Part shown: piece by piece, positions 18,477 through 39,793 of the stretch
Position numbering within the stretch: position 1 is the stretch's first letter
How the letters are laid out: the number at the start of each line of letters is the position of its first letter
Assembly (NCBI GenBank): GCA_038400315.1
Contig: CP151667.1
Location: forward strand, 6,645,174-6,709,173
DNA length: 64,000 nucleotides
Reading direction: 5' to 3'
From: Isosphaeraceae bacterium EP7
GTDB taxonomy: Bacteria > Planctomycetota > Planctomycetia > Isosphaerales > Isosphaeraceae
Notes under the pieces: model-generated
What the model saw: the letters and a program-made list of their open reading frames with translations, nothing else
Told to the model about the DNA's origin: nothing
The model's database searches: none
Position numbers and translations under genes: made by a program

Positions 18477-19241
18477 TCATTGGGTCACGACTACCGATGA
18501 TGTCGGGTCGCCTCCGTCGTAAACCCGGCCATTCAGGAGCATCATCGGCGAGCAGACGTTTCCCGCCGCAGAGAGCGACCATCGATAGCGGATATCGTCC
18601 TGATACGGCGAGACGTAGGTGGTCGTCGGGAAGAGTCTCCGAAGCAGATATGCACCTGGCTCGCAGGCAAGGTAGTAGCGGAACGCGTCGCCCGTGATCG
18701 CGTCGGTGAAAGTGCCCGGGCTCAGATGGATAGAGTCGGGGATCTGGAGGCTCTGGAATACCGGTGGTGTCGGCCCGTAGACGAGCGGCGTCGACTGGAA
18801 CATGCCATTCTGGGCAGAGGGATGATTGCTGACCATCTGGAGCACCGCGGGCGTCGTCAAGCATGGGCAGCCGACGATTTTGATTGGCGCCCCGGAGATC
18901 GGCTGGCCGGAGGTCTTCTCGGCGACCCATCGATTGCCGATGAATCGACAGATCAGGTCGTCACCCAGGATCGGGGCGGTCCTCCCGCAGACGTAGACCA
19001 GCACCGTCGTCGACGAATCCACCGAGAGGCTGGCGGTCCCCGACTCCACTTCCTGCCCCTTGACCGAGACCGGGTTGACGCTGAAGTAGCATCCGATCGA
19101 GGTCGGAACCGTCGGCTTGCCGACGACCCTGCCGACGAAGGATGGCTGCCCCGACGACGATGGCGAAAGGAACCTCGAAGCCTGCGCCGCCCTCGCGTCG
19201 ATTCCGGCGAGAAAGCGACGTCGATCGTCATCAACCATCAT
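18477..19241 (-). CDS. Phage-cassette hypothetical protein (distal end)
   Basis: A 254-residue protein of unknown function, the last gene of the cassette. The first 35 residues are charged and helical, and the remainder is Ser/Thr/Val/Pro-rich and probably all beta. The segment EVESGTASLSVDSSTTVLVYV echoes ETEGGQGSVTAAPATFFAYN of the preceding gene, so the two are probably diverged relatives. ATG 19241 overlaps the stop of the previous gene by 11 bases (translational coupling); a second ATG follows directly. Position suggests a minor tail or virion surface protein. No recognised family. Confidence 0.65.
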   Translation of the reverse strand: MMVDDDRRRFLAGIDARAAQASRFLSPSSSGQPSFVGRVVGKPTVPTSIGCYFSVNPVSVKGQEVESGTASLSVDSSTTVLVYVCGRTAPILGDDLICRFIGNRWVAEKTSGQPISGAPIKIVGCPCLTTPAVLQMVSNHPSAQNGMFQSTPLVYGPTPPVFQSLQIPDSIHLSPGTFTDAITGDAFRYYLACEPGAYLLRRLFPTTTYVSPYQDDIRYRWSLSAAGNVCSPMMLLNGRVYDGGDPTSSVVVTQ

Positions 19242-19563
19242 AGCGGAAAACCCAGCGGGCCCCAGTGAAGGTTGCGACCACGGTCGTCCCCGACGCGGGC
19301 ACTCCCGCGCCGAGGTTGTAGGCGAAAAAGGTGGCCGGAGCCGCGGTGACGCTCCCCTGCCCCCCTTCCGTCTCCTGCCCGAGCACGAAGAGCGGCTCGA
19401 GCGCATAAAATCGAGAGGCCGACGTCGGATATGCGACCAGCGTCTTGGTCCGGCCGACCACGCTGGGCATCCCCTGGAGCGTATCGCGCCGGAGGCGAGT
19501 CATCCTGTCGGACTGGTCGGCATTACGAATACGGAGGCGTCTCAACTCGTCAGTGTCTATCAT
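19231..19563 (-). CDS. Phage-cassette hypothetical protein
   Basis: A 110-residue protein of unknown function. It starts with a charged helix (DTDELRRLRIRNADQSDRM) and continues with short beta-rich sequence ending FTGARWVFRYDG. The core resembles the next gene's protein (VGRTKTLVAYPTSASRFYALEP against VGRVVGKPTVPTSIGCYFSV). The ATG shares an ATGA overlap with the stop of the hub-like gene before it, so it is translationally coupled. It is likely part of the virion tail; no family was recognised. Confidence 0.6.
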   Translation of the reverse strand: MIDTDELRRLRIRNADQSDRMTRLRRDTLQGMPSVVGRTKTLVAYPTSASRFYALEPLFVLGQETEGGQGSVTAAPATFFAYNLGAGVPASGTTVVATFTGARWVFRYDG

Positions 19564-21659
19564 CGGCCGGTCCCTCGCTGGTCTGACAGCCTCAGGATCG
19601 TCCTCTGCCCGGACTGGAAGTCCCAGGTCAGGCCGACGACCATGGGGTAGGAATCTCCCTCGTCGGCGGGGGCGCCGGCGTTCGTCTTGAGCGAAAGTTC
19701 TCGCCCTCGGATGCTCCGGATCCGGTCGCCGACCCGGTAGGCCCTGGTGAAGTAAGGGATGATGACCTGGCCGGAGACCTCGCCCGCCTCGGTCGTCATC
19801 CGCCGCGCATCCGCCTCGGTAAGGGCGGCCCTGGTGTCGTCGCGAACGACGACAGCGGTTGAGCCGGGATTGAACTCGCTCTTCGCCGCCTTGACGTGCT
19901 TGGCCAACCGATCTCGAGCGTCGATCCGCCTGGTAATCGTGTAGGCGGTCGGGCTCGTCGGCCGCCTCGGTGCGTTGGCGGAAACAGTCCGATCTCCCTC
20001 GATGACACAGGTCAGGCGCAGCACAAATCGACGAAACGCCGATCCGTTAAGGTCCTCGATTCCCCGGACCATCCCCAGGGGGTATGGCGCGTTGGGTACT
20101 TTCGATGCGCCGATGTTCCAGGCGTTGGGGTTCGAGGCGTTGATCCAGACGCCGAGTTGGTCGGAGAGCAGTTCGAATCCTCCGCCGACCGTCTGCCAGG
20201 TCCCCGTCCCGTCCCAGAGTCCCGGCTGAGTCCCAGAATAGTTGGTCGAGATGGAAAGCTTCGCCCTCAATGGCCTCTGCTCTGCGTCGACCGTGAAGAG
20301 GTCGCCCAGCGGGGGCCTGCGGCGGCTGACATACCCTTTCGACGAGCCGGTGGCACGTCCGAAGAGGGCCGACAAGGATGGCACGGTCTTGACGATCGCC
20401 GAGGTCGCCCAGTTCCAGTGTCCTTCCCCCGTCTCGTCGAAGACGAACAGCCGATACTTCAGAGGATTGCCCACACCCAGGTCGAACTGCGAGAGGGAGG
20501 CGTCAGAGTTGGCATCGGCAGGGTCGAGCGCGAACCCAGGAGCCAGGATGAAACTGGCCTCGTATCGCACGAGGCCCGATTCGACGGTGTACGAATTCGC
20601 GACATTCGACGTATCACGAGAGAGCCTTGCCTTGGCCAGGTTCGTCAGGCCAGGATCGAACAGTCCGCCCCTGGGTTGGAGGGCAAGATCCTTGACGCTG
20701 GCCTCCGAGTCGTCGTTGGTCCGGATGACCTCGAGCGACGTGCAGGGGGTACCATCGCCGCTCGTTTCGGTGCGAAAGATCAGGCCGAAGCCGTGAGGCT
20801 CGAGGATGTCGCGCAAGGCGATCGGCCAAGGCTTGCCCGTCACCGGGACATCGGGGACGAAAATTGATTGATTCCGATAAGTCTGTGTATCGGACGAGTT
20901 GAGCGTCGCGCCGTTGGACGACACCCTGACCTGGAGCATGGCATCGAGCGTATCGCTATCGGGATTGCTCACATACGTCTGTGTCCCGTTCTGACGATAG
21001 CAGAGGTACCTGGCGGCCATGGACAGGGTCCAGGGCCGCCGCGGGTCCGGGTCCCTGATGACCGCCGGATCGAGAAAGGTCGAATAGCGATTGCCGGATG
21101 GGTCGCTCGCATCGGCCCCGTCCGGGGTCGCATTAGGCTCGCCCTTGGGATTGAAGTGCGTGACCAGGTCGGTCTCGACATCCTCCCCGTTGATGGGATC
21201 ATTGGCGTCTCTCATGAGGGCACCGCCGACCGGCTGATCCCACTCGCGTACGGCCACGCCCTGAACGACGAATGTGACCGACTCCTGCACTGGGCCTAAG
21301 ACAAGCTCGGGCACCTGCGCGAATCCGTCGAAGAGCACGCAGGGATTGCCGTCGGGGTCGACCGTCAGGATGACGAGTCGCTCGTCGTTGGCGACGACCC
21401 CCGAGGGGCCGCCGTCGACGCTCAAGATCTGCTCGAACGAGATGGGGTCGTCCGGATTCCCCAGAGGGTCGAGGACGTAACGCAAGATGGCCAGGCCGGG
21501 GTCGGCGCCGGCGGCAAGCTGGATCGACTCGACCTGGACGTTCGGAAGGATCTCGTAGGGGGTCGCATCCCCCGGCCGATACCGGAAGACGCAGACCCGG
21601 TTGGCGCCCCGCGACAGCGGCACGCCGGACTGCTCGATCGTTCCCGACGATGCCATCAT
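19560..21659 (-). CDS. Large tail protein, baseplate/hub candidate
   Basis: A 699-residue protein, mostly predicted beta structure, with no signal peptide or membrane segment. It begins with a domain containing NRVCVFRYRPGDATPYE and VESIQLAAGADPG and ends with IRSIRGRELSLKTNAG and VVGLTWDFQSGQRTILRLSDQ. A C-terminal segment that sets up local coordinates and refers to angular or frame-like terms is typical of hub proteins, but the assignment rests mainly on size and on its place after the tail-tube and small tail genes. It lies 13 bases after the fibre-like gene before it and is ATGA-coupled to the next gene. Another type of tail-tip protein is possible. Confidence 0.6.
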   Translation of the reverse strand: MMASSGTIEQSGVPLSRGANRVCVFRYRPGDATPYEILPNVQVESIQLAAGADPGLAILRYVLDPLGNPDDPISFEQILSVDGGPSGVVANDERLVILTVDPDGNPCVLFDGFAQVPELVLGPVQESVTFVVQGVAVREWDQPVGGALMRDANDPINGEDVETDLVTHFNPKGEPNATPDGADASDPSGNRYSTFLDPAVIRDPDPRRPWTLSMAARYLCYRQNGTQTYVSNPDSDTLDAMLQVRVSSNGATLNSSDTQTYRNQSIFVPDVPVTGKPWPIALRDILEPHGFGLIFRTETSGDGTPCTSLEVIRTNDDSEASVKDLALQPRGGLFDPGLTNLAKARLSRDTSNVANSYTVESGLVRYEASFILAPGFALDPADANSDASLSQFDLGVGNPLKYRLFVFDETGEGHWNWATSAIVKTVPSLSALFGRATGSSKGYVSRRRPPLGDLFTVDAEQRPLRAKLSISTNYSGTQPGLWDGTGTWQTVGGGFELLSDQLGVWINASNPNAWNIGASKVPNAPYPLGMVRGIEDLNGSAFRRFVLRLTCVIEGDRTVSANAPRRPTSPTAYTITRRIDARDRLAKHVKAAKSEFNPGSTAVVVRDDTRAALTEADARRMTTEAGEVSGQVIIPYFTRAYRVGDRIRSIRGRELSLKTNAGAPADEGDSYPMVVGLTWDFQSGQRTILRLSDQRGTGR

Positions 21660-21672
21660 CTGACCCTTCTCG

Positions 21673-22389
21673 TTAGCTGTTCATCAGCCCGTGCCGCTTC
21701 ATCGCGGCGACCAGGGCGTTGACCGCGGCCACAAGGGACGCGAAGTTCGAATTCAAGATGACCTGCGAATGTGTCGTGCCGACGTTGGCAACCGTCGCTC
21801 CGGCCACGCCGGTCGTTGCGTCAATCAAGGCGGCCAGCGTCGCAGCCTGGGTGGCCGGTGTCGCCCCGAAGAATGAGAGAGTACGTGCGATCGGGTCGAC
21901 GGCCAGGACCGGCAGCGAGTCGGTCGGATTTTTGACCGACACGGCACCCGTCAGCTGGCCCCCGGCGGTCGGCAGGAACCCACCGGAGGGGGATGCCGTG
22001 GCACACTGGACCCGCTCGTCGACGATCGAGCTAACCGATGCGGCGAGCGTGGTGACCGTCGCCAGTCGACAGTGCGAAGTCGTCGGAAATTGTGCACCGA
22101 ATGCCGGAATCCCGGCCGAGTCCAACCAGATGGCGATGGTCGACGACGCGGGGAGTACGAGCGAATTGCTGCCCGCGAAAGTCTTGAGGCTACCATCGGC
22201 CCCCGCGTAAGCGCCGGGAGTCAGGCGAACTCGGAGGGACGAGCTCGGCTCCTCGGTCGTAGCCACGGCAAGGTGCCCGAGGGCCGCGGACCGATCCAGT
22301 CGGTCGGCGTTGGCATTCAAAGCGTCGTGCCAGTTGCGGTCGGCGAAGGCCGGTTTCTGAAGCCGGACATTGTCGGTGAAGGTCGTCAT
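21673..22389 (-). CDS. Tail fibre-like protein
   Basis: A 238-residue protein whose first part (FTDNVRLQKPAFADRNWHDAL followed by NANADRLDR) matches the usual opening of phage tail-fibre or tail-tip proteins, in which short beta strands precede a paired Asn/Asp helix. Residues from about 130 (GGFLPTAGGQLTGAVSV) are similar to the repeated GG-x-LTG-x motifs of fibre shafts. The end (NSNFASLVAAVNALVAAMKRHG) is a helix. The ATG has GAGG 9 bases upstream. It lies between a fibronectin-like protein and the hub candidate, consistent with a host-contact or tail-tip role. Confidence 0.6.
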   Translation of the reverse strand: MTTFTDNVRLQKPAFADRNWHDALNANADRLDRSAALGHLAVATTEEPSSSLRVRLTPGAYAGADGSLKTFAGSNSLVLPASSTIAIWLDSAGIPAFGAQFPTTSHCRLATVTTLAASVSSIVDERVQCATASPSGGFLPTAGGQLTGAVSVKNPTDSLPVLAVDPIARTLSFFGATPATQAATLAALIDATTGVAGATVANVGTTHSQVILNSNFASLVAAVNALVAAMKRHGLMNS

Positions 22390-22410
22390 GGTCGGAGGCC
22401 TCGATTCCGG

Positions 22411-23127
22411 TCAAGCCGATGGGCTCGGCTGCCAGGACAGTGTGGCCACTCGCGAGGCCGCACCGGTGTACATGTAAGTCAGCGAACCCCCGTCCAGGCC
22501 GCGGGCGGGCGGGCGGGGAGGGGCCTGGATCGTCACGCTCGCCGGCGTGGGCACACCGCGCTCGTCGCCGGAGTGGTCGTAGGGGACGATCGCGAACGAC
22601 CAGACGCCCGATGCGAGCGGCTCGCTCTGCCAGGCATAACGGCCCGCGCTCCGGCCGAAGCCCCCCTGGCCGAATCCGCCCAGGCCGAAACCGTCGGCGA
22701 CCCAGCCCCCCGGATAGGCCGGTACCGAGCCGACGAGGTTGGTGAAGTCGACAGGCTGGCCCGGGCGCATCGATCCATAGATACGGAATCCGCGGATGTC
22801 ATCCTGGCCGCTCGGGTCGAGATACGTCCCCCCGAGCCACGACAGGCTGGCCCATGGGCTAGTTCCCGGCGAGGAGGGGAGCTGTCCCGAGAGGTCCTGG
22901 TTGAAGTCAGACGGGTCGACTTGAACGACGTCGACCCGGGACACCCTGCCCGCTCCCCCCGCGGGTAAAGGGGCCTGGCAGCGGCGCCCGCGGCCCTGCC
23001 AGACCAGCCGACGATCGAGATAGACCTGGAACAAGGCCCCGGGCGGAGACTGCGACGACCAGGAGACGATAAGGTCTCCACCGGCCTGGTCGAGGGCCAG
23101 GTCGATCACGGCGGTCGGAAGGATCAT
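22411..23127 (-). CDS. Fibronectin-type-III-like phage-cassette protein
   Basis: A 238-residue protein with one or two Ig/FN3-like beta-sandwich modules: DLIVSWSSQSPPGALFQVYLDRRLVWQG at the start resembles an FN3 strand pattern, and WSFAIVPYDHSGDERG lies near the middle. A short Gly-rich loop (GFGLGGFGQGGFG) interrupts it. The related 192-residue protein at 32.2 kb has a comparable pattern (ALAWLSPVIRG, FRLYATTVAGG). FN3 modules are common in virion surface proteins, where they bind carbohydrate or give spacing. Only 7 bases separate it from the preceding gene. Confidence 0.6.
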   Translation of the reverse strand: MILPTAVIDLALDQAGGDLIVSWSSQSPPGALFQVYLDRRLVWQGRGRRCQAPLPAGGAGRVSRVDVVQVDPSDFNQDLSGQLPSSPGTSPWASLSWLGGTYLDPSGQDDIRGFRIYGSMRPGQPVDFTNLVGSVPAYPGGWVADGFGLGGFGQGGFGRSAGRYAWQSEPLASGVWSFAIVPYDHSGDERGVPTPASVTIQAPPRPPARGLDGGSLTYMYTGAASRVATLSWQPSPSA

Positions 23128-23134
23128 GGAGGGG

Positions 23135-23503
23135 TCACCTCAGGTGCAAGAGGCGGGCCCAGTAGGGCTGCAGGTAATAACCTTGAACGGAGCGGAGCAC
23201 GCGACCGGTGGGGCGGAATGCGTCGAGGCAGACCCCGTCCCAGGAATTGGACGCGCTGTCCACCAGCGTTCGCGCGACCCCGTCGTTCAGCGACCGAAAT
23301 GTCGCCTCGACCGAGCGAAGCGACGCCACGGAGTTGCCGACGAGGAGCCCGACCACCTCGGTCTGCCTACCTCGGCGGCCTCCGTCGATGAACTCCAGCC
23401 CATCCAATCCGAAATACTCATTGACTTGACGAGACCTCTGCAGGTCGGTCGTGGTCATCGTGACCGAGATGCCGAAGATATTCATTCCGCCATAGCTGGG
23501 CAT
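23135..23503 (-). CDS. Small phage tail protein candidate
   Basis: A 122-residue protein of unknown family. It begins MPSYGGMNIFGISVTM and has a compact alternating pattern with the sequence GLDGLEFIDGGRRGRQTEVVG near residue 40 and CLDAF and QGYYLQPYWARLLHLR near the end. ATG 23503 is chosen because the upstream part of the open frame overlaps the preceding gene in another frame. The next gene begins 7 bases later. Position between tail-tube and fibre genes points to a tail-completion or tail-tip role, which remains inference. Confidence 0.6.
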   Translation of the reverse strand: MPSYGGMNIFGISVTMTTTDLQRSRQVNEYFGLDGLEFIDGGRRGRQTEVVGLLVGNSVASLRSVEATFRSLNDGVARTLVDSASNSWDGVCLDAFRPTGRVLRSVQGYYLQPYWARLLHLR

Positions 23504-23511
23504 AAGTTTAT

Positions 23512-24069
23512 TCACACGAGCGATTCGAGGTGGATCCGCTCCTCCGCATCCCGGCAGACATCCGCGAAGTCGGCCAGCGGGATGGTCCGGCCGGTGGCGG
23601 AAAGCACGGCGAGGAGTGGCGACAAGTCGCCGGCATCGATGGACACGCCCCCGAGGCCGTTGGCCTGGAGCGACGCGCGGGCCCATCCGGTGAACGAGGC
23701 CACGCCGGGCCGGGCACCGAACAGCGATTCGACAAGGGTAGCGGCCAGCGCCCTCATCGGCGGCCCCGGCGGTACGGCGACGAGCGACTCGGCCTCGGCC
23801 TCGGAAAGGTCATAGTTAGGCCGAAGCAGGCTCCGTGCAGCGACGCGGATCGTCCGCGGGTCGATCGGCTCGCCCAGGACGAGGCCGTCGAAGATCCGGT
23901 CCAGGGCGTCGTCGACGTCGGGCTCGGACAACGAACCACGGTCGCCCATGAGCCTCGGCCGTGCCAGCATCCATTCGCCCCCGTCGGCCAGGAGGACGGG
24001 TGTCCCCCGGGCCTTCGGGAGCCGGCGTCCGGCCTCGCTCAATGCATCAGTCAGGCTTGATCGTTCCAT
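23512..24069 (-). CDS. Phage-cassette protein, possible tail assembly protein
   Basis: A 185-residue acidic, helix-rich protein without recognised domain. Sequence near residue 90 (SEAEAESLVAVPPGPPMRAL) and the run of Leu/Ala helices could suit a tail-assembly chaperone, which usually sits directly after the tail-tube gene. There is no frameshift-type slippery site obvious at its end, which such chaperones often have. The ATG has GGAG 6 bases upstream and lies within the last 23 bases of the previous gene. Function is open. Confidence 0.55.
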   Translation of the reverse strand: MERSSLTDALSEAGRRLPKARGTPVLLADGGEWMLARPRLMGDRGSLSEPDVDDALDRIFDGLVLGEPIDPRTIRVAARSLLRPNYDLSEAEAESLVAVPPGPPMRALAATLVESLFGARPGVASFTGWARASLQANGLGGVSIDAGDLSPLLAVLSATGRTIPLADFADVCRDAEERIHLESLV

Positions 24070-24328
24070 AAAGAACTCCGTCGCCCCGGTCCAGCCAGTC
24101 GTAGCGAGGCTGGCCGGCCAGGGGCGAGTGCGTCGGGTGGAGCAGCGTGTCTCCGCCCTGGGGGCTCAGGAAATGGCCGGTCCCCTGCTGGCGGATGAAC
24201 ATCGCACGGACTCCGAGCAGGGGTGCAAACTCCCGGTCGAGGCGAGACAGTCGCTCGCGGGACGAGCCCTGCCCCGGGTATCCAACGGGGACCATCACGG
24301 CGGCCACGCGGCTGATTTCGTTATCCAT
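24047..24328 (-). CDS. Small phage-cassette protein
   Basis: A 93-residue protein of unknown function. It begins MDNEISRVAAVMVPVGYPGQG and ends DRGDGVLYGTIKPD, with a central segment RAMFIRQQGTGHFLSPQGG. No domain was recognised. The ATG has GGAG 9 bases upstream, and the reading frame overlaps the next gene by 23 bases. It probably belongs to the tail-assembly group because it directly follows the tail-tube candidate. Confidence 0.55.
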   Translation of the reverse strand: MDNEISRVAAVMVPVGYPGQGSSRERLSRLDREFAPLLGVRAMFIRQQGTGHFLSPQGGDTLLHPTHSPLAGQPRYDWLDRGDGVLYGTIKPD

Positions 24329-24347: not shown

Positions 24348-24785
24348 TTACGAGGCTGCGCTGGCCGAGAGCGGATTCGTGGTCCCGTCGGCAGAGAAGG
24401 CGACGAACGTGAGGATCGCCTGGCCGAAATTGCGGTGATCGCCCGAGGTCGCCTGCGACGCGATCACGGCGTTGCTCAGCGTGTAGGTGATCGCCCCGGA
24501 ACCCGAGCCATTCCTGGCATCGTTATGCGTCGCGGTCAGTGTACCCACCGTGCCGATCGCATTGGCTCTCGTCGCGGCGATGTCGGCGCAGCGGATCGTC
24601 ACCGTGGGCTCGGACATCTCGGAAACGATCGTCGTCGGGTAACGGTCCCCGTCGCCCGAGAACTTCGCCAGCGTCCCGCCGGCTTCGATCTTCAGCGAAA
24701 GGACCCCGGTGTACGTCGTCGCGGTCCCTCCGCTCGGGGTGAAGGTCACGTTCGTCCAATTCATGTGTCGCTTGGTCGCGGGCAT
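24348..24785 (-). CDS. Tail tube protein candidate
   Basis: A 145-residue protein with a tail-tube-like beta pattern: WTNVTFTPSGG, then TGVLSLKIEAGGTLAKFSGDG, then PTTIVSEMSEPTVTI, and a second sheet with GTLTATHNDARNG and ITYTLSNAVIAS. The pattern of two sheets with a long loop and a terminal FGQAILTFVAFSADG strand resembles Hcp/gpV-like tube folds. ATG 24785 is chosen over the TTG two codons upstream. It follows the giant fibre gene after 58 bases. The fold is inferred from pattern, not from a database match. Confidence 0.6.
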   Translation of the reverse strand: MPATKRHMNWTNVTFTPSGGTATTYTGVLSLKIEAGGTLAKFSGDGDRYPTTIVSEMSEPTVTIRCADIAATRANAIGTVGTLTATHNDARNGSGSGAITYTLSNAVIASQATSGDHRNFGQAILTFVAFSADGTTNPLSASAAS

Positions 24786-24843: not shown

Positions 24844-27800
24844 TTAGGCGGGCAGGTTCAGCGTGACGGAAGAGCGATTGCCGGCATTGTCCGTAGACGC
24901 CGTGATGCGGGTGGGCGCGTTGTTGCCACCCTTAATCACGACGGTCCCAGTCCCGGCCCCGCTGAGCGTGCCGGCCGAGGCGGCCAGGATCGGCGAGATC
25001 GCCTGGCGGATGTTGATCCCTGGCTCGATGGTGACGGTGTCAAGGCCCGCCGCCGCCAGGGCGAAGCCCGATTTGTTGGTCACTTCGCCGACCGTCGGAA
25101 CGATCGCGCCGTCGTGGCTTACGGCGGCGAGGATCACACGGCCCGTGGTGTCGGTCTTCAGCCGATTCTGGGGGGTGGAGAGCACCAGCGTCGCCGGATC
25201 CTGTCCGGTGGCGTAGCCCGAAACCGTCACACCGCCGGCGACCGAATAACCCACCTTGTCGAGCACTGTCCCTGCCGACACGCGGCCGTTGCCGTCGGTG
25301 GCAAGTTTATTCGACGGGGTGGCGAGGATCAGGCTCGCCGGGTCCTGACCGGTCGCATAACCGCCGATATTGACGCTGCCCGCGACGGCCACCGGAGCGG
25401 TGACCGATGCCACTGCACCGCCCGCGAACGTCGAGTAGGTGCCGCTGGCCAGTAGGTTGTCGAGCTTGGAAAGACGCGTGGCGTCGAACTTGCCGTTCAC
25501 CGCAGTCGACGCAGCCGTCGCGGAGGCAACGGACGTATCCAGCGAGTTGAACCGGGCACCGACGGCGACGTCGAGATTGTCAAGCTTCAAGGCTCGGGCG
25601 GAGGTGAAACCGGCCGCCGTGAGACCGGCGCCGACGGAGGTAGAGACGCTCGAAGGGGTCGCCAGAGTCGAAGAGGCGACGTCGAGGTTGTCAAGCTTCA
25701 AGGCACGGGTCGGGGTTAGTCCCACGTTCGTCAAGGCAGCAGCCGGATCGACATAGGCCGCAGTCGTGACGGCCTGCCTGGGATCGACCAGGCCGTAACC
25801 GAGGGTGACCGACGGGGAGTCGGAGTTGTAGAACCGGACCCCGCCGACCAGGGTGGCGTCGAGGCCGGTGTAATCCCATCGGTAAAAGCCATTGCCCTTG
25901 TCGGTGAAGCCGGTCGAGATCGGGCTGCCGATGTCGGTGTCGGTGCCCGACCCGTCGGCCGACTGCGGCTGGGCGCGGAGATTGGCCAGGATGCCGGCCA
26001 TGCCGTTGCCGAGATTCAAACTCGCCTGGATTCGCATGATGCCTTCCCTCGGGGTGATGCCGCCGCCTTCGAGGGGGGCGTTGTAATAGGTGGTGGTCAG
26101 CAGCGTGGTGAGGGCGGACTGCTTGGCGCCCGGGGCCTGCCCCTGGTACTCGAGGGCGCCGAACTGGTTGCCCGCGCCGGTGGACCCGAACGACTTGTAG
26201 TGGTTGGCCAGGATGAACCCGGCCGCGTCGAGCATCTGGTAATAGGACAGGTAGCAGTCGCCCATCCTCGGGTCGCGATTCAGCTCGAAGTAGAACGCGG
26301 CCGCGGCCGGCCCGGCGACCGACGCGAGGTGCTGGCCCGACTCATAGGCGGCGATTCGCAGGCCGTTGGGCGTGATGTACTTGGCCACGAATGCGGCCAT
26401 GAGCTGCGGGAACGCGCCGGAGCCTGGGCCGATGACCATCGCGTTCAGGGCGGCGAAGCCGGCGGACATCGTCCGATCCGAGAACATCCAGATCCGCGCG
26501 CCGCCGTTGCCGGGGGACGTGGTCGCCGTGGCGGCGGGGGCGCCGGTCACCGGGAATGTGAATGTGTTGGCGTCCACCACGGTGATCGACCTCGCCCCGC
26601 GGCAGCTGCCGGTGACGGCGCCTCCCGAGACGGTGTCGTCCACGCCGGCGACGAACCAGACCTGGCCGGTCGTCAGGCCGTGGCCCGGGCAGGTCGCGGT
26701 CGCCACGCCGCCGGCGCTGGTCAGCGAGATCAGCTCGCGGCCGCCGAACGCCCCGCTGTAGCCCCCCCGGATCGTGCCCGACGTGGTCGCCGGCGTGGCC
26801 GGGGTGCCGGCCACCTCGAAGGTGATGGTCGTCGAGGTCGTCGAGAGGACGATGTGATCGCCGTTGTACTCGGCCTGATCCGCCCCGGCGATCCGCATTG
26901 CCACGCCGAACGAGACGTTGTGACCGATGGCCGTCGCGGTGGCGATGTTGCCCGAGCGGGTGATGCTCGTGACGTTGAACCCGAGGGCACGCACGCCCAA
27001 GGAGACCTTCATCCCGTCGGTCGTGCCGGTCGCCGTCGCGGCCGGGCTGCCGGGCACGGCGTAGGTGAAGGTCGTCGTCGTCGGGGCCGAGAGGACGGTG
27101 AAGCCGCCGTTGTACTCGACCTGGTTGACGCCGATGATCCGCACCGTGTCGTTGGCGACAAACCCGTGGGCGCCCGAGGTGGTGGCGGTGGCGATCCCGC
27201 CAGCCGAGGTGAGCGAGTTGACGACCCGGGCATAGCCCGAGACGCAGTTCTCGTCGATGTCGGCTCCGCCGCCGGCGTTGCTCTTGAAGTAGGGGGCGAC
27301 GGCGAAGACCTCGTCGCCGGTGAAGACGCCGCCGTTGTCGGCCTTGTACTGGGCCAGGATCGCGGCGTTGTAGGCGCTGTCGACGTACCAGCCACCGATG
27401 ACCGGCACGAGACGGCTGCCCATGATGGGCCGCATGATCGCGAAGATCTGCTGGTAGCGGCGGCCCATCCAGCGGGCGGCCGAGTCGTCGGACTGGGGGT
27501 AGCCGGAAACGCTGGCATTGGAGACGATCTTGCGGAACCGGATCGTCTTGCCGGGCGCCGCCGCGATCGGGACCGATCCGACCATGTCGGTCGGCAGATC
27601 TCGCGTCGAGGCGGGGCAAGCGTAGATCGCCAGAGTCGTGCCGGACGTGACCTTGCCGGCACGCCAGATGCCGTTGGCACGGACGTCGGCGCAGCCCGAG
27701 AGGACGAAGTAATCGCTCTCGACGAGCCCGGTGCCGGCGGCCGAGAACGAGCCGGCGTAGGTGCCGGTCCCCATCGTGAACTGCAGGCTGCCGACGTCGA

Positions 27801-32824: not shown

Positions 32825-33517
32825 CTAGCGCGAGATCCGGGTGCTGAACCGACTGGCAGGAACGGACCAGCCAGACGGGTCGGCGGGCTTCCAGTGGACG
32901 ATCAGCCGGGCCAGAAGCTCGTCCAGCTCGGCCTTGAACAGCGACGCTTTCGCGACGAACGTCCCCTCCGACCGGCCGTCTCCGCGGGCCAGGTCGAGGT
33001 AGCGGCGATAGAGCACGGTCAGGACCACGGCGTCCCGCAGCTCCCTCGGGTCCGACAGGTCGCCCGGCCTCCGGCCGGCCAGGGACGGATCGACCCCGAG
33101 CCGTCGGTTCAGGTCGCTCGTGGCCGCAGCGATCTGAGGCGCCAGCGTGACGATCCGGAACTCGACCCCGGTGACCCCGGCGTCGGGGCCGGGCGTCTGC
33201 CCTGCCCCGGATCCCTGCCCGAGGCGCCTCAGCAGCACGCCGGAGCCGGCCACCGCCCGATCCACGGCGAGGGACTCGCCCGGCGGCCTGAAGGCCGTGA
33301 CGGGGCGGAGCAGCCGCACCACCTGGCCAGCGACGACCCCGCGGGCCGTGAAGTCCACCGTGCCCGAGCGGAGCAGCCATCGATCCGCCGGCCCGAGGAC
33401 CCCGTCGGAACCCTGGACGACCACCTGGTCGTGGGGGCAAAGGAGCATGAAGTCGGCCGCGGCACGGACCGCCACGTCCTCGTCCGTCGCATAGACCGAT
33501 TCAGGACCGATCATCAT
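32825..33517 (-). CDS. Head-tail connector-type protein candidate
   Basis: A 230-residue protein located where phages encode neck and connector proteins, after capsid and before tail genes. It begins MMIGPESVYATDEDVAVRAAADF and contains a beta-rich middle (GTVDFTARGVVAGQVVRLL) followed by a helical end (RELRDAVVLTVLYRRYLDLA). ATG 33517 overlaps the preceding stop by 17 bases. No precise family was recognised, and the role is from position. Confidence 0.55.
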   Translation of the reverse strand: MMIGPESVYATDEDVAVRAAADFMLLCPHDQVVVQGSDGVLGPADRWLLRSGTVDFTARGVVAGQVVRLLRPVTAFRPPGESLAVDRAVAGSGVLLRRLGQGSGAGQTPGPDAGVTGVEFRIVTLAPQIAAATSDLNRRLGVDPSLAGRRPGDLSDPRELRDAVVLTVLYRRYLDLARGDGRSEGTFVAKASLFKAELDELLARLIVHWKPADPSGWSVPASRFSTRISR

Positions 33518-33902
33518 TGCCTGGCTTTCTGGTTCGGGTCCGGGACCGGGCCGGCCGGGGCTTGATATAGTCGCTGATCTCGGGGACGTGACCGCTCTCC
33601 GCATCCGTCCCGGCAGGCGGGGGGCCCTCCCCCGCCTCCGAGACATCGTGCAGGCCACTCCGGGCGTGCTCCAGCATCAGCTCGGCCGCCCAGAGCGTGA
33701 TCCGGAGGACGTCTCGATGCCGCGTCGCGCGGTCGAGGATCGTCAGCGCCTCGGCCGCCGACGCCTCGGCCGCCTGCGCACACAGGTTCGACAGCGAAGA
33801 GAGGGTCTCGACACCCCGCATCGACGAGGCGAGATCGGCGAGACCCGCCTGGCGTGCGGCGGCCGCCACGAAGACGGACATCCCTGGGAAACGTAACCTC
33901 AT
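33501..33902 (-). CDS. Small helical protein after the capsid gene
   Basis: A 133-residue Ala-rich helical protein (MSVFVAAAARQAGLADLASSM, then AQAAEASAAEALTILDRA) with a basic C-terminus (PRPARSRTRTRKPGNDD). ATG 33902 is used, with GAGG about 11 bases upstream; TTG 33941 just after the capsid stop would add 13 residues. Its place between major capsid and connector genes fits a head-completion or decoration protein. It is not a recognised family. Confidence 0.5.
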   Translation of the reverse strand: MRLRFPGMSVFVAAAARQAGLADLASSMRGVETLSSLSNLCAQAAEASAAEALTILDRATRHRDVLRITLWAAELMLEHARSGLHDVSEAGEGPPPAGTDAESGHVPEISDYIKPRPARSRTRTRKPGNDDRS

Positions 33903-33964: not shown

Positions 33965-35107
33965 TCAGCTCGCCGAGAAAGCGGTCACGCCTTCGAGCCA
34001 GGCATGATGGCTGGGGTTCTCCACTTCGATGGCGCCCTCGGCCAACCACTCACCTTCGAAGGCGTCGCCGCGAACGCCACGCGGGTTCCAGAACTCGTTG
34101 CGCTTCATCCGCAGCCTTACCTCGGACGAGGTCAGACAGACCGCGGTGCCCGAACGCAGGAGCGGGGCCTCGATGATCGACAGGCCGCCCAGGAACGGCA
34201 CGGCGAACACATCGATCGGCGTGCCGAACACGTTCACGCCGGCGTCGATCCGCTGAATCTGCGAGCCCCATGTGGCAAGGCCAGTCATGAAGTTCGGGGC
34301 CACCAGCAGCACGTCGGGATCGCCGCCGCCGGTGCGGCACTTCTCCATCGTGTCGCGGATGAAGTCCACGGCGCGGTAGGCCGCCGCGTTCGTCGGGCTG
34401 GTCACGCTGTTGACGTTCAGCAGGGTCTTCAGGCCCTTCTGCTTCGGCCTGCTGGCGACGGCGGGGTCTTCGCCGCGGCCGTAGTAGCAGCTGACCTCCA
34501 TGTCATCCATCAGGTTCTGCAAGGCGTCCATCTTGTTCTGGTCGAACGGGGTCCGATTGCCCGCGGACGCCTGGTACGAGGTGGAGCCTTGCAGCGCGCC
34601 GCTGACCTGCACGGGGTGCATCCAGGTCTGGCAGAACTGCGGCACGCCGATGGGCTTCAGCGCGATCCCGTTCTGGTTGATCTCGCCACCGGTCCGGCTG
34701 TTGCCGATCAGTCGGACGGTGTCATTAATGGCGCCCGTGCTGGCGGTCGTGCCTTCGGCGGCGCGGCGCACCGTGATGGCGTTGGTCACCGGGTTGGGGT
34801 CGGACAGCAGCTCGACCCGCTCGCCCGAGGCCAGCTCGAGCACGTCGCCGGTCATGAAGGCGCTGGCGTCGACCAGCGTGAGCTGGCTGTCGCCGGCGGT
34901 CGCGGCCGCGGCCAGCGTGGCGACCCGGGTGCGGAAGGCGCGGCTGACCATCGTGAAGGTGGTCGAGCCGGCGGCCGCACGCGGCAGCCTCGAGACCAGC
35001 GGGCAGCGATTCACGAACCAGTTAGTCGAAACGACGTGGATGTCGTTGCGGATCTGCGACTGGTTGTCGAAGACGTTCTGGATGCCCTGCAGATACGCAT
35101 TGGCCAT
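33965..35107 (-). CDS. Major capsid protein (SU10-like, DUF5309)
   Basis: A 380-residue capsid protein of the SU10/DUF5309 type, HK97-like fold. Recognisable features are the N-terminus QGIQNVFDNQSQIRNDIHVV, the central LNVNSVTSPTNAAAYRAVDF and MEKCRTGGGDPDVLLVAPNF regions, and the C-terminal WNPRGVRGDAFEGEWLAEG followed by AIEVENP. GAGGG lies 8 bases before ATG 35107. The scaffold-like gene lies directly upstream, and connectors follow, as in tailed phages. The family assignment is from pattern recognition and should be confirmed by profile search. Confidence 0.82.
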   Translation of the reverse strand: MANAYLQGIQNVFDNQSQIRNDIHVVSTNWFVNRCPLVSRLPRAAAGSTTFTMVSRAFRTRVATLAAAATAGDSQLTLVDASAFMTGDVLELASGERVELLSDPNPVTNAITVRRAAEGTTASTGAINDTVRLIGNSRTGGEINQNGIALKPIGVPQFCQTWMHPVQVSGALQGSTSYQASAGNRTPFDQNKMDALQNLMDDMEVSCYYGRGEDPAVASRPKQKGLKTLLNVNSVTSPTNAAAYRAVDFIRDTMEKCRTGGGDPDVLLVAPNFMTGLATWGSQIQRIDAGVNVFGTPIDVFAVPFLGGLSIIEAPLLRSGTAVCLTSSEVRLRMKRNEFWNPRGVRGDAFEGEWLAEGAIEVENPSHHAWLEGVTAFSAS

Positions 35108-35182: not shown

Positions 35183-35809
35183 TTAAGAACGGCGGGGACG
35201 GCCCAGCCCGACGGGGCCGGTGGCCCCCGAATCGGGACGATCCATCGACCGCCACTGGCTCACGACGGCCTCGCCCAGCGTCCGCGGGCTCGTGCCCCGG
35301 GCTGCGGCGCCCGGTACGGGAGACGCGACGTCGCGTCCCCCGACACCACCACGAGAACTGGGCAAGGCGAAATGGGCATACTCGGAACTCTTCAGTCGCT
35401 CGGCCACGACATCCGATGCGGGCCGGCCGTCGCGAGAGACCACCTCGTGGCGACCCTCGCGTTCGAAGACCTCGAAGTCGTCGCGCCAGAGCTTCAGCAG
35501 CTGGCCGACGGCCCCGGAGACCAGCGGACGGCCCGCCAGGGCGGTGGCAACCTCGCGGTCACGCATCGCCCCCTTGAACGCCTGCTCCCAGGCGCTCGCC
35601 TTCTTCTCCATCCCGGCCAGCTCCGCGGCCAGGGCCTCCGTCCGCTCCTCGGCCTCACGCGACCGGGACGGCCGCGGCTCCTCGGGCGGGCCGGCGGCCT
35701 GAAGGCGCAGCGCGTCGAGCTCTGCCCGCGAGATCGTCACGACGTCGGCGGCCGGCGAACCGCCGGGCTCACCGACCAGTGGGGCAAGACGGATCAAACG
35801 GATACTCAT
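35183..35809 (-). CDS. Scaffold-type protein
   Basis: A 208-residue protein with a short N-terminal extension, a long charged helix/coiled coil (EEPRPSRSREAEERTEALAA, then LAGMEKKASAWEQAFKGAM) and a C-terminal Gly/Arg-rich tail. This composition and its place directly before the major capsid gene match phage scaffolding proteins, which assemble the procapsid. ATG 35809 follows a GTG start four codons upstream (35821); neither has a strong ribosome site. No protease motif is seen. Confidence 0.68.
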   Translation of the reverse strand: MSIRLIRLAPLVGEPGGSPAADVVTISRAELDALRLQAAGPPEEPRPSRSREAEERTEALAAELAGMEKKASAWEQAFKGAMRDREVATALAGRPLVSGAVGQLLKLWRDDFEVFEREGRHEVVSRDGRPASDVVAERLKSSEYAHFALPSSRGGVGGRDVASPVPGAAARGTSPRTLGEAVVSQWRSMDRPDSGATGPVGLGRPRRS

Positions 35810-35831
35810 TTTTTGGGCCACTCACATTCGC

Positions 35832-35951: not shown

Positions 35952-36132
35952 GGATTCGAGGCCCCAGGCGACGCGGCACATTCGCCTGGCGACCGGGCCG
36001 GGCCGAGGGGCCCATCGGCCCCGCGTCCACACCCTTCCCGGCCGCCAACTCACCGCGTCCTCACCCCTTTGCAGCCGGCGATGGCCACAATTCAGTCTCT
36101 CTCAATCCCGCAAACGCAACATAAATCCCACA

Positions 36133-37716
36133 TTAGGGCTCGGACAGGTGGCCGCTTTCCGCGTGACCGCCCCGCTTCTCCGCCGCGGGCAACGGCGTCC
36201 GGCCCTCCAGGAACGACGTGATCTCCTCGTCGCAGGCCGCGTACTGGGCGTCGGGCATCCCCGGCAGGCAGAGCCGGGCGAGTCTCGAGAGGATCAAGGC
36301 CTCCGTCGTCGGCAGCGCCCCGGCCTGGGCCGCGATCGACTGGAACGACGAGGCCGCGCTCGCCACGTCGCCGGCCGTGTACAGGTCGAACTCCGCCGGG
36401 TAGATCACCTGGACGAGCTGGAGGTCGCCCCGCTCGACGTCGCCGTCGTTCAGGACCACCCAGGCCAGCTCGGCGGCCACCTGCTCGGAGCGGGCCAGGA
36501 CCTTGGCCACCTTGGCCAGCCGGTTGTTGCCGTCGGCGTGGTCGATCAGCTTCGACAGGCCCGACTGCGCCGCACCGGACAGGCCGCTCGGGCGGACCAG
36601 GGCCGAGTCCCGGTCGACTTCCTGCCGCAGGTCGGCCTTGTTCTTCCGTAGGCTCTCGGCCCCGTCCTTGGGGAAGTTGACCACGTCGAACCCCTCGTAG
36701 GTCGCCGTCCCCCCGTGCACATTCTTCTTCTTGGGCAGGAGCCAGCTCGGCCCGATCGGGACCGTGCCGTCCCCCTGCACGAAGTCCTCGGGCCCTTGCA
36801 GCAGCGGGTGTGCCTGCGTCGTGTCAGAGAGGATCAGCTCCGAATCGCGGTTGTAATACTCGCGCTGGCGCTCGGCGATCCCCTCGTAGCGCGACTGCCC
36901 GGTGTGGCGGCACCGGGGCTTGCGCCGGTCGAATAGCCGGACGATCGGCACCAGGCCGTAGGGGTGCGGCATCTCGGCCAGAACCTCGCCCTCCTCCGTG
37001 TACAGGGTCGATCCTTCGGCCGTCCAGTGCCTGTAGCGTTGCTCCACGCCATCGGCACCCTCCACCAGCTCGCGCACCAGGCATTCCTCGTAGCGCTGGC
37101 CGGTCGAATCCAGGCGCCACCAAAGCATGTCCTCGGGCAGGATGCACGAGGCCACGCACCGGTCGAGCCCCAGCCTGCGCTGGTCGGCTCGGGTCTCCAC
37201 CACCTCGCCCTTGGGCGGCGCCGGGTGATCGAAGCAGAGGTCGATCTGCCCGAGCACCATCAGCAGCGGAGCCACGGTCTCGGCCATCCATTGGTCGATC
37301 GAGGTACCGCAGCCGTCGACGTCGGCCCACCAGGCGGTCAAGGCCTCGGGGCCGCTGCGCCTCACCTCTCGCACATAGATGCGTGACAGGTGCGTCTCCA
37401 CGGCCTCGGCCACGAAGGTCGGCGGTGGCGTCCGCGCCCGCCTCAGCTCGTAGTCGTCGTCGGTGGCCAGGGTCGCCGGGTCGGCGCCCGCCATCGCCGC
37501 CAGCTCGCCCGATGACTCCCGAGGGTCGGGGTACTCGCGCTTGTGGCGGATCATGTTGCGGATCGGCAGGCCTCGGCGGTCATAGCCGTAGATCGCCTGC
37601 CGGTAACGCTCGCCCCCCTCCAGCGAATCCAGCAGCCACTGCCAGCGCAGCCTGTGCTCGGACCACTCGGGATGGCGGCGTCGGATCAAGTCCACGCTCT
37701 CCCGCTTCAAATTCAT
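36133..37716 (-). CDS. Phage portal protein
   Basis: A 527-residue portal, the dodecameric ring through which DNA enters the capsid. Typical features are the helical N-terminus (SVDLIRRRHPEWSEHRLRWQ), stem-like FVAEAVETHLSRIYVREV, and YNRDSELILSDTTQAHPLL with the later LSKLIDHADGNNRLAKVAKV helices. It follows the terminase gene after one base (TGACATG) and precedes the scaffold and capsid, as in a standard head module. The C-terminus is extended by a short Pro/Glu/Gly stretch. The exact portal family was not resolved. Confidence 0.82.
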   Translation of the reverse strand: MNLKRESVDLIRRRHPEWSEHRLRWQWLLDSLEGGERYRQAIYGYDRRGLPIRNMIRHKREYPDPRESSGELAAMAGADPATLATDDDYELRRARTPPPTFVAEAVETHLSRIYVREVRRSGPEALTAWWADVDGCGTSIDQWMAETVAPLLMVLGQIDLCFDHPAPPKGEVVETRADQRRLGLDRCVASCILPEDMLWWRLDSTGQRYEECLVRELVEGADGVEQRYRHWTAEGSTLYTEEGEVLAEMPHPYGLVPIVRLFDRRKPRCRHTGQSRYEGIAERQREYYNRDSELILSDTTQAHPLLQGPEDFVQGDGTVPIGPSWLLPKKKNVHGGTATYEGFDVVNFPKDGAESLRKNKADLRQEVDRDSALVRPSGLSGAAQSGLSKLIDHADGNNRLAKVAKVLARSEQVAAELAWVVLNDGDVERGDLQLVQVIYPAEFDLYTAGDVASAASSFQSIAAQAGALPTTEALILSRLARLCLPGMPDAQYAACDEEITSFLEGRTPLPAAEKRGGHAESGHLSEP

Positions 37717-37717
37717 G

Positions 37718-39271
37718 TCAGAACACCTGTCGGGCGGCCACGCGGGGGAGTTTGTCCGAGGCCGGAGGCTTCCGGCCCTCGGGGTAGATCGCGCGCAGGC
37801 CCCCGCGCAGCGCGTCGACCAGGTCCTCGTGCGGATGCTGCGGATCCTCCGGATAGTCCATCCACTGACCCGCCCGCTTCGCCCTCCGGTAGCTCCGCAA
37901 GGCCGAGATCAGGTTCTTGCATCGCGGGTGGATCAGCAGCCGAGACTTCCCGTCGGCTGCGTCCATGAACGACTCGACCAGGGTCAGGCCGTCGTTCACC
38001 GAGCCGCCGGGCCAAGGGTTCATGGGCTTCAGCCCGTGGTTCTCGTAGATGCTCGTCGCCGTCACGGCGATCGTGTTCCGGTAGCTCCCCGCCGGGTCGG
38101 CCCAGATGTGCTGCATCTTGCCCTGGCAGAGGCTCCCGGCGATGTCGCGCAAGGTCCGCGCGTTCACCTCGACCGACTGCGCCTCCATCAGGTGGTCGGC
38201 GAACACGTGGATCGATTCGACCATCCCAGTGGGCGTGTAAGCCTGGGTCTTCTGGAAGAACACCGCCCCCGTGAACACGCCCGAGTCCACCGCCAGGTGC
38301 ACCGGCAGGTGCGGGTCATATTCGGCGAGCTCGCTCACGTGCCGATCCGGGTCGAACGCGGGGAACCAGAGCCCGTCGGCCTTCGGCCCCTTGCAGAGGT
38401 AGTCGGCCTCGAAGGTCCGCTTGCTGGTCGCCACCACCTTCTGCACCAGCGAATCGATCGAGTAGTGGCCGTCCGACCGCTTCGCCTTGGGCGTCTGCCA
38501 GGGGGGCCGGTCGTGGCAATGCGTCATCAGGGGGCAGCTCGGGCAGTGCTCGAGGTTAGGCCCCGACCGCTCGTCGGTGCACCGCTCCAGCACCTCGAAG
38601 ACGCAGAACGTGTACGACGGGAACGTGTTCCCCTCGCGTGATCGGTCGAGCAGCTGCCCCACCGGGCCGCCGAGCCTGTGCCAGGTGGAGGTCATCACCA
38701 CCGAGGCCTTATGCCCATGCTTGTTCATGCTCATGCCCATTGCCGCCTCGCGGCAATCGGAGTCGATCTCGTCGACCTCGTCGAGCTTGAGGCAGGGAAC
38801 ATGCGGCCCGCGCACGCTCCGGCTTGACGCCGCGAGGATCGCCACGTCCGAGCCGTTCTCGTACCGCGCCCGGTCGCGCAGCATCTTCACCCGATCCATG
38901 TCCCCGCGGCCGAGGAGCTCCGAGCCCTCCAAAATCTCGCGCAGCCCCGCATACACCTGCTCCGATTGCGCCCGGCTTGCACCCAGAATCCGGGTGCCAT
39001 ACCGCGGGTTCCAGCGGCTCATCAGGTGCGTGTCGAGCGCCGATAAGAACGACTTGCCGCCGCCCCGGGGCCCGACGATCAGGCTCAGGTTCGGCCGGTT
39101 GAAGAACAGGTCACGCACGAACGCCCAGACCGGCGAGTGCCCCTCGCAGACGCTCGTCCGGGCGATCTTGATCCCCGTGTTCTCGACGATCCATTTGTAG
39201 AGCGCTTCCTCATCCAGAGGGCGGGCATCGTCGCCCCCCTTCGGGCAGTTGACCACGTCGTCCACAAGCAT
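37718..39271 (-). CDS. Phage terminase large subunit
   Basis: A 517-residue ATPase-nuclease that packages DNA. Walker A is GPRGGGKS (67-74) and Walker B is CLKLDEVDEID with the acidic pair at 164-165. The C-terminal nuclease acidic residues fit D328 (LAVDSG), D392 (IWADPAG) and D484 (HEDLVDALR). Between the domains is a Cys-rich insert with C231, C243, C246 and C252, the spacing of a zinc knuckle, unusual for terminases. It lies between the HTH gene and portal. Presence of intact catalytic motifs suggests the packaging machine is still functional. Confidence 0.9.
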   Translation of the reverse strand: MLVDDVVNCPKGGDDARPLDEEALYKWIVENTGIKIARTSVCEGHSPVWAFVRDLFFNRPNLSLIVGPRGGGKSFLSALDTHLMSRWNPRYGTRILGASRAQSEQVYAGLREILEGSELLGRGDMDRVKMLRDRARYENGSDVAILAASSRSVRGPHVPCLKLDEVDEIDSDCREAAMGMSMNKHGHKASVVMTSTWHRLGGPVGQLLDRSREGNTFPSYTFCVFEVLERCTDERSGPNLEHCPSCPLMTHCHDRPPWQTPKAKRSDGHYSIDSLVQKVVATSKRTFEADYLCKGPKADGLWFPAFDPDRHVSELAEYDPHLPVHLAVDSGVFTGAVFFQKTQAYTPTGMVESIHVFADHLMEAQSVEVNARTLRDIAGSLCQGKMQHIWADPAGSYRNTIAVTATSIYENHGLKPMNPWPGGSVNDGLTLVESFMDAADGKSRLLIHPRCKNLISALRSYRRAKRAGQWMDYPEDPQHPHEDLVDALRGGLRAIYPEGRKPPASDKLPRVAARQVF

Positions 39272-39490
39272 TAAATCCAGGAAATAGACAAGTCATGAAA
39301 CAAGCCCCGCCATGGTCCGCCTCCTCCCGGCTCCTACGCCCCCGGGCCCGCATCGCCCCGGAAGCCGCCGGCTCCGTCCCCTCCGCCGCTCCCGAAACCC
39401 GGGCCCGCCGCGCGGGGACCGGGGCAAAATTCAAAGGAATGAAACGATGAACCGATCAAACAGCTTCGGATGAACTCGCGGTGCCTCCGC

Positions 39491-39793
39491 TCACTCGAAC
39501 TTCGCCATCTCCTCCAGGATCGCGCCGATCCTCGACCTCGGCAGGTCGAAGACGTCGGCCAGCATCCGCTGCGAGAGCCCCGAGCGGTGCGCCACGTAGA
39601 TCACCAGGTTGCGCCGGAACCTCCAGCGCTTCCCGACGCTCGCCCCTTCCGGCGGCGCCATCGGATGCCCCGCCCCGGCCCCTTCGGTCGAGGACTCTTG
39701 CCTGACCGAAGAGGTCGGCCGGGTCCGGTCCTGCTTCCGGCACGTCCCGCCTGAAATCGAGACCACTCGCCCTTGTGCGTTCGCCATGGCCAT
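39491..39793 (-). CDS. HTH protein, small terminase or cassette regulator candidate
   Basis: A 100-residue protein. The first half is polar and likely flexible; the second half is a helix-turn-helix (GLSQRMLADVFDLPRSRIGAI) like sigma-4/HTH domains used by small terminase subunits to bind DNA. It is the first gene of the cassette, directly before the large terminase (219 bases), which suits a small terminase. A transcriptional regulator is equally possible. ATG 39793 has GGGG 4 bases upstream; ATG 39787 is the alternative. An AT-rich stretch upstream probably holds the cassette promoter. Confidence 0.6.
   Translation of the reverse strand: MAMANAQGRVVSISGGTCRKQDRTRPTSSVRQESSTEGAGAGHPMAPPEGASVGKRWRFRRNLVIYVAHRSGLSQRMLADVFDLPRSRIGAILEEMAKFE

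Follow-up and report, generated by a model that had tools for sequence, protein, structure and literature searches.

What does a set of phage head and tail genes do in a chromosome if nothing in it appears to move or copy it? This question is raised by a 64,000-nucleotide stretch of contig CP151667.1 of Isosphaeraceae bacterium EP7 (hereafter the window; the genome comprises 7,199,273 bases in five contigs), in which a cassette of phage structural genes occupies positions 18477 to 39661 of the minus strand. The original prediction had read this cassette as a domesticated phage or an element resembling a gene transfer agent (GTA). Comparison with related genomes indicates that the cassette is almost certainly domesticated and vertically inherited. 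From the sequences it looks as if it had been gained before several genera of the family Isosphaeraceae split and had kept the same chromosomal place since, and the whole is probably best explained as a GTA-like siphophage that was domesticated and passed on vertically and whose tail is decaying. The domestication part of the original prediction is thereby well supported; the GTA-like part, for which packaging and transfer of host DNA are presumed, is worded conditionally in what follows, all the more as several lineages have a degenerate tail or none.

The same-locus check proposed along with that prediction reveals that eight genomes of five genera share both host flanks of the cassette (G codes denote genomes and g codes genera). 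The 5' side reads ppa, rmlD-like, cvpA, S4, pfkA and egtD-like, after which the cassette begins with the genes of a helix-turn-helix (HTH) protein, the large terminase TerL, portal, scaffold and capsid; on the 3' side trm112 (antisense), fabF, psp1, minf and a methyltransferase gene follow, the gene set being incomplete in some genomes. These flanking genes were mostly named by Pfam, the remainder by eye. Both flanks are seen in G024 (g8), G012 (g13) and G008, G025, G034 and G066 (g9) as well as, on two contigs each, in G016 (g17) and G019 (g20); G018 (g19) contributes the 3' flank only. The antisense position of trm112 is the same in G008, G012, G016, G018, G019, G024, G034 and G066, and in G025 the genes seen after the cassette are fabF and minf. 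The window retains this 3' neighbour: its cassette is immediately followed by trm112, and an NYN gene lies farther on. In G009 and G026 the site is empty, egtD and psp1 being spaced by 138 and 210 bases, respectively. The genes pfkA and minf lie 2.4-2.5 kb apart in these two genomes without cassette, 13.1-14.0 kb apart around tail-less cassettes (G008, G012, G025, G034 and G066) and 20.7 kb apart around the tailed cassette of G024.

To compare descent, a concatenated tree of TerL, portal, capsid and the conserved neck-region protein h4 (1669 columns, 18 genomes) was set against an rpoB tree of the hosts. All starred clades of the cassette tree are present in the rpoB tree and no starred conflict occurs: like rpoB, the cassette genes recover g8+g20, g8, g9 and G008+G025 (starred), and both trees further agree on g9+g13 (92/95) and g15 (93/94). 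In the capsid tree the species of g6, g7, g8, g9, g14 and g15 cluster by genus, second copies aside, and g18 and g5 fall together without resolution. The portal tree unites the window's lineage in one clade (98 SH-aLRT) which the capsid tree does not resolve. V147, a fragment of 9.8 kb whose genes are ordered as in g8, is the sole metagenome contig within this portal clade; those metagenome contigs that are phage-like fall close to a second lineage of cassettes described below, not within that of the window. These trees suggest the long vertical inheritance typical of a GTA, with g19 as a possible exception: the single capsid tree places it with g13, g4 and g9 (93), while rpoB places it with g1+g2 (83) or with g1, g2, g8 and g20 (93/91). 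Such a discrepancy would be expected if the cassette moved among genera via homologous recombination of its flanks, so that the shared locus reflected transfer and not descent, and the small gene of 60-70 amino acids which g19, g13 and g9 have in common before trm112 would fit this as well. We nevertheless regard flank recombination as highly improbable, given that the concatenated tree, in which g19 has no resolved position, contains no starred conflict with rpoB and that protein identities to the window of 51-73% within its lineage point to an old divergence.

Ratios of nonsynonymous to synonymous substitution rates (dN/dS) were calculated by the NG86 method for five pairs of genomes, all of them relatives of EP7. 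Between the tail-less g9 genomes G008 and G025 dN/dS amounts to 0.056 for TerL, 0.064 for portal, 0.059 for capsid, 0.170 for scaffold and 0.103 for h4, compared to 0.030 for pfkA, 0.083 for fabF and 0.087 for egtD among twelve host genes ranging from 0 to 0.153. The corresponding dS values are 0.33-0.60 for the five cassette genes (0.40-0.60 for TerL, portal and capsid) and 0.37-0.92 for the host genes. For G008 and G034 the portal yields a dN/dS of 0.12, and in pairs of the second lineage tail tube and hub yield 0.11-0.23, a sigma factor being more weakly constrained (0.28-0.38). Head genes thus lie within the range of flanking host genes, which indicates purifying selection in the relatives, as presumed in the original prediction and as known of GTAs. 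In addition, the GC content at third codon positions of the cassette tracks that of the host flanks from 0.47 to 0.94 (r 0.90, 23 contexts), a match which could also be attained by a host-adapted phage. All 20 cassette genes of the window are intact, and no internal stop occurs in the capsid or hub matches listed from relatives.

Functions by which a prophage would sustain itself were sought by scanning 18 of the 20 cassette proteins against PHROGs and 13 against Pfam, the products of 32244-32822 and 23135-23503 being included in neither scan. No integrase, repressor, replication or lysis gene was matched among the 18 proteins scanned, in agreement with what had been predicted. The hallmarks of a temperate prophage (integrase, repressor, att) were thus not encountered in the cassette, the rest of the genome not having been searched for such genes. 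No tRNA is present in the window, and no att-like repeat beyond chance was found between the two 2.7 kb flanks: their longest direct repeat measures 13 nucleotides, compared to 11-17, mostly 12-14, in random pairs of flank size (n=184). A tailocin is not indicated either, since TerL, portal, scaffold and capsid are present and the tail is the part that is lost. What was found is a cluster of phage-type genes for head and packaging which is fixed in the chromosome and, as far as the 18 proteins are concerned, devoid of integration, excision and replication genes of its own, as in a GTA. None of the results named beforehand as refuting domestication was seen, as the site is occupied in several relatives, neither att repeat nor integrase was detected and the capsid and hub matches listed contain no internal stop. 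Repeated insertion of ordinary prophages at a single hot spot, where they became defective and are now decaying, could account for the loss of tails, which resembles decay, and prophage relatives of the cassette do exist (see G063:C15 below). Such an origin seems very unlikely in view of the missing att repeat and integrase, the lack of internal stops in the matches listed, the overlap of cassette-gene dS with that of neighbouring genes, the compatibility of cassette and host trees and the single portal clade of the window's lineage with V147 as its only metagenome member.

Among the genomes searched, the cassette is largely confined to one family. Of 59 genomes scanned for TerL, 37 belong to the family and 28 of these carry it, compared to none of the 22 from other families; capsid was found in 32 of 45 family genomes. 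A class-wide capsid search gave matches in 43 of 248 genomes, 33 of the 45 in the family (G015 weakly) and 10 of the 203 outside; the latter ten are weak and confined to residues ~49-153, and a full-length match was found in none of the 203. These same residues match inside very long frames (up to 12,073 amino acids) in other families of the class. Throughout the phylum the portal profile matched 4 of 294 genomes, namely the window's own and three with weak, partial matches. A first terminase scan of a genome-contig collection found no relative; a portal alignment search yielded 26 loci, among them Tautonia sociabilis, Aquisphaera insulae and Paludisphaera soli, some metagenome-assembled genomes being labelled otherwise, and 23 loci with related portals came from a viral collection. 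In 50,697 phage records neither TerL nor capsid found a match, and portal gave partial matches of 24-26% in six. In the low-GC genomes G001 and G022, where the gene finder under-calls genes, homology was used instead.

The tail is the part in which the cassettes differ most from a functional siphophage. As had been predicted, the window lacks a tape measure gene: between t53 (23512-24069) and t11 (23135-23503), where one would be placed, there is an 8-base gap and no gene. In 13 further cassettes this slot holds frames of 205-405 amino acids which by eye are of low complexity, mostly rich in Pro, Ser or Ala, and many of which end in a short helix-like motif. The empty slot of the window, taken together with these remnants, shows that the tape measure is genuinely missing, in line with a wider trend. 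Beyond this, neither the hub nor, in profile searches, the tail tube was found in any of ten g6, g9, g13 and g19 genomes keeping TerL or capsid, three of which are less than 80% complete (G018, G032 77%, G065 64%) so that absence is less certain there; for G018 the absence of tube and hub can be read directly from the locus. Downstream of capsid and neck genes, the shared locus of g9, g13 and g19 holds fibres (retained in g13 and g19) or none, then the gene of 60-70 amino acids and trm112. This small gene between t22 and trm112, for example at L023:2648-2857 (minus strand) and L032:4762-4971 (plus strand), did not turn up in any tailed context searched, and because it is common to the three genera their tail losses may be one event.

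Retention of the head after loss of the tail is the most unusual point. We tentatively propose, at least for g9 and g13, that a tail-less DNA-packaging head, a capsid with portal, scaffold and a seemingly active terminase, is kept as a chromosomal trait, tube, hub and tape measure having been deleted in place. If true, there would be a DNA-handling particle without a phage tail which either exports DNA or enters cells by a non-phage route. A related alternative dispenses with transfer altogether: the domesticated packaging head would serve, for instance, disposal or storage of DNA, lysis that benefits kin, or presentation of fibres acting on surfaces or rivals, and the tail would decay because delivery to cells is not needed. 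The missing tubes and hubs in the ten genomes, the strong purifying selection on head genes of tail-less g9, the retained fibres of g13 and g19 and a slot which is remnant or empty in 14 of 14 cassettes, that of the window included, would all suit such a role. It appears unlikely, however, as tailed cassettes persist in many genera and tube and hub are under constraint in the second lineage, and the incompleteness of three of the ten genomes weakens the case further; to our knowledge, moreover, a packaging head with a non-transfer role has no precedent.

The second lineage (g7, g14, g15 and g18) carries related cassettes located elsewhere. In six of its nine contexts (g7, g14 and g15) an M32 carboxypeptidase gene is nearby, and in four of g15 uvrA lies upstream. 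Because of this recurrent neighbour and the degenerate tape-measure slot we consider this lineage probably domesticated too, with less certainty than that of the window, and on the same grounds set aside its interpretation as full prophages, which its sigma factor and helicase genes would suggest. Upstream extras recognised by eye comprise small membrane proteins and a cysteine-peptidase-like gene. The latter was considered as a lysis gene and rejected, having no Pfam match and being absent from the window's genome; since it also occurs in genomes in which no cassette was found, such as G009, G010, G020 and G026, it is no proof of a lysis module. One g15 genome possesses a second, prophage-like copy, G063:C15 (L222:3043-20000 and L223:1-4424), which corresponds to IMGVR_UViG_2889415604_000004 (IMG/VR contig L167). 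It shares with the cassettes homologous TerL, portal, scaffold, capsid, h4, tail tube and hub. In contrast to them, it has, as judged by eye, serine recombinase-like and HTH repressor-like genes, both situated upstream of its terminase, and it alone holds in the tape-measure slot a helical-looking, tape-measure-like protein of 512 amino acids.

Several observations weigh against a vertically inherited, GTA-like siphophage. With a degenerate tape measure and lost tails, delivery in the normal manner of a siphophage is unlikely. The second lineage has a sigma-70 factor downstream and, in four of nine contexts, a D5-type helicase gene (Pfam), paired with a primase-like gene (by eye), so not every member is free of replication-type genes; examples of sigma factor and helicase gene after the cassette are L038:16024-17040 and L213:215-2062. 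The window's genus comprises one genome, so that selection was derived from relatives and, for tailed pairs, from outside its own lineage, and dS values by NG86 are biased in GC-rich genes. The 23 loci of the viral collection imply that free relatives may exist. Besides the capsid-tree placement of g19, rpoB joins g1+g2 (96/97), which the cassette tree does not do, without rejecting it (approximately unbiased test, p 0.19). As to the locus, the 5' side in the window differs from the shared one: a pfkA of the locus kind was not found in the window's genome and its minf is located elsewhere. G001 (g2) has its ppa-to-egtD block ~14 kb ahead of TerL, with no trm112 detected on the downstream side, and the g6 cassette is at a different place.

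For the GTA-like siphophage we envisage the following course. A siphophage would have entered the chromosome of an ancestral Isosphaeraceae, and its virion module would have survived, inherited with the host. Once expressed, portal, scaffold and capsid would assemble a prohead to be filled by TerL with DNA at hand, predominantly that of the host, given that genes for replication or excision were not found in the element. Release of the heads, which the fibres would decorate, would be brought about by lysis functions from elsewhere. Without a tape measure, EP7 is expected to form either no tail or one that is very short or irregular. Packaging of host DNA by the cassette appears probable; that the DNA is also delivered to other cells is conceivable, albeit slightly on the doubtful side. 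The benefit would most likely reside in the packaged DNA, hence in gene transfer, export of DNA or lysis itself being less likely. As far as can be judged from sequence, the element would be GTA-like in its action.

Known GTAs are few, and outside the Alphaproteobacteria they have been little studied. Like those of Rhodobacter, Caulobacter, Bartonella, Desulfovibrio, Brachyspira and Methanococcus, the cassette is a head-tail cluster in the chromosome which derives from a phage, is passed on along with the host and in which no genes for self-mobilisation were found (features of GTAs in part from PMC11841831). It differs from them in belonging to another phylum, in its degenerate or missing tape measure, in the loss of the tail in several genera and in that DNA transfer is here a prediction. 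In PDB sequences the portal and capsid profiles matched no GTA or RcGTA chain at E 0.1, RcGTA genes not having been compared directly. In Thaumarchaeota, provirus-like loci with head and tail genes, for which a GTA role has been suggested, likewise have an intact morphogenesis module and no identifiable att sites or replication genes (PMC6563490); those loci are highly divergent and of distinct origins, whereas here one element extends across many genera, several of which share the locus. Lactococcus lactis chronically releases tail-less phage particles (PMC8752148), a likeness in the missing tails, yet their source is resident prophages and not a chromosomally fixed cassette without a detected integrase. 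Whether features separating GTAs from phages exist is asked in a review (PMC11841831). The cassette offers a test case in that cultured genera share its locus, some sites are empty, a prophage-like sister has a tape-measure-like gene and the tail decays in graded steps. No earlier report was found in the literature on planctomycete GTAs or on phage genes of Isosphaeraceae, Paludisphaera or Isosphaera, represented mostly by titles and beginnings of abstracts, nor do titles and abstract openings of papers on planctomycete or hot-spring phages (PMC10945688, PMC8597652) report the cassette. A search for the word "phage" in the EP7 species description (PMC12402505) gave no hit. EP7 carries four plasmids, and phage genes were sought on plasmids without one being detected (PMC12603096).

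Table 1. Cassette genes and conserved host neighbours, in cassette order (positions in the window; lengths in amino acids).
Feature	Position	Strand	Length	Basis
Small HTH protein, small-terminase or regulator candidate	39491-39661 (longest frame to 39868)	-	56	weak HTH matches (Pfam)
Large terminase TerL	37718-39271	-	517	phrog_2, E 1e-12
Portal protein	36133-37716	-	527	phrog_145, E 3e-31
Scaffold protein	35183-35740 (longest frame to 35821)	-	185	phrog_206, E 4e-5
Major capsid protein, SU10_MCP family	33965-35107	-	380	PF17236, E 1e-36
h47, conserved head/neck-region protein	33501-33881	-	126	homologues in relatives
h4, conserved neck-region protein, adaptor candidate (position)	32825-33517	-	230	19-member alignment A9
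h10, fibronectin-like by eye	32244-32822	-	192	homologues in relatives
t22, neck/tail-terminator candidate (position)	31469-32107	-	212	alignment A7, low identity
Collagen-like fibre	29521-31218 (longest frame to 31269)	-	565	PF01391, E 4e-12; tail-fibre PHROGs
Large fibre	24844-29469 (longest frame to 29481)	-	1541	phrog_9998, E 2e-42; phrog_529 tail fibre, E 9e-13
Tail tube protein (predicted)	24348-24785	-	145	predicted fold, Foldseek/VIA
t15, tail module	24047-24328	-	93	10 contexts including window
t53, tail-assembly chaperone candidate (position)	23512-24069	-	185	homologues in G016, G019, G024
t11, distal-tail candidate (position)	23135-23503	-	122	12-member alignment A8
t7, tail module	22411-23127	-	238	15 contexts including window
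t9, tail module	21673-22389	-	238	14 contexts including window
Baseplate/tail hub (predicted)	19560-21659	-	699	predicted fold, Foldseek best E 3e-6 to hub proteins
e0a, cassette end	19231-19563	-	110	homologues after hub in relatives
e0b, cassette end	18477-19049 (longest frame to 19406)	-	190	homologues after hub in relatives
Trm112-like host gene, conserved 3' neighbour	17772-18131	+		Pfam Trm112p, E 2e-7
NYN/OST-HTH host gene	15129-15974	-		Pfam NYN, E 3e-36; OST-HTH/LOTUS weak

Profiles and predicted folds confirm the phage structural nature of the cassette (Table 1). It comprises 20 intact genes on one strand, 19 co-oriented ones at 18477-39271 and the small upstream HTH gene, instead of the 21 originally counted, a number which is reached if a doubtful frame of 49 amino acids between portal and scaffold is included. 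The standard phage order holds overall, except that the two fibre genes, assumed to stand at the end, are placed between the neck genes and the tail-tube gene. Homologues of the HTH protein precede TerL in G001, G003, G019, G024 and G066. In all eleven aligned TerL members, five of them from tail-less cassettes, phrog_2 was found, and Walker A and B as well as three Asp residues in the nuclease portion are invariant, motifs with the usual ATPase and nuclease roles. Scaffold homologues occupy the equivalent position in relatives, as do those of h47 in G008, G018, G019, G024, G025, G034 and G066. The capsid profile matches the major capsid protein of PDB entry 9in6 (E 2e-15). By its SU10_MCP family (PF17236) the capsid is SU10-like; as the tail tube is of the long-tailed kind, the whole element was not classed with SU10-like phages. 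Searches of the PDB with profiles of TerL, portal, t11 and h4 were uninformative, h4 having no sequence match there. Alignment A7 of t22, which is retained in tail-less cassettes, contains seven clustered members and two second-lineage proteins added by hand. The C-terminus of the large fibre is common to fibres of relatives.

PHROG scans of tube and hub members returned stray weak matches only, and their assignment follows predicted structures. The AlphaFold2 model of the 24348-24785 product (predicted local distance difference test, pLDDT, 73.5) matches the siphophage R4C tail tube 8gtb (Foldseek E 4e-4; VIA Z 11.9, root mean square deviation 5.0, 125 aligned) and chain 6tba_50 of a GTA virion (Z 10.1); many Hcp tubes of secretion systems match it as well. 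Judged by this model, the product is a tail-tube/Hcp-type protein. The N-terminal part of the hub model resembles central hubs of the gp27/gp44/VgrG type; its mean pLDDT is only 57.5, with residues 21-310 mostly at 71-88 and a dip at 241-260.

Around the cassette three further observations were made. G007 and G012 likewise have the NYN gene in linkage with the cassette region. A perfect 24-base tandem repeat of 7.6 copies is found at 40685-40866 within the adjoining phosphodiester-glycosidase-like gene (40000-41220), and 46141-48561 encodes a large protein which combines cyclic-nucleotide-binding domains with several 4Fe-4S ferredoxin domains.

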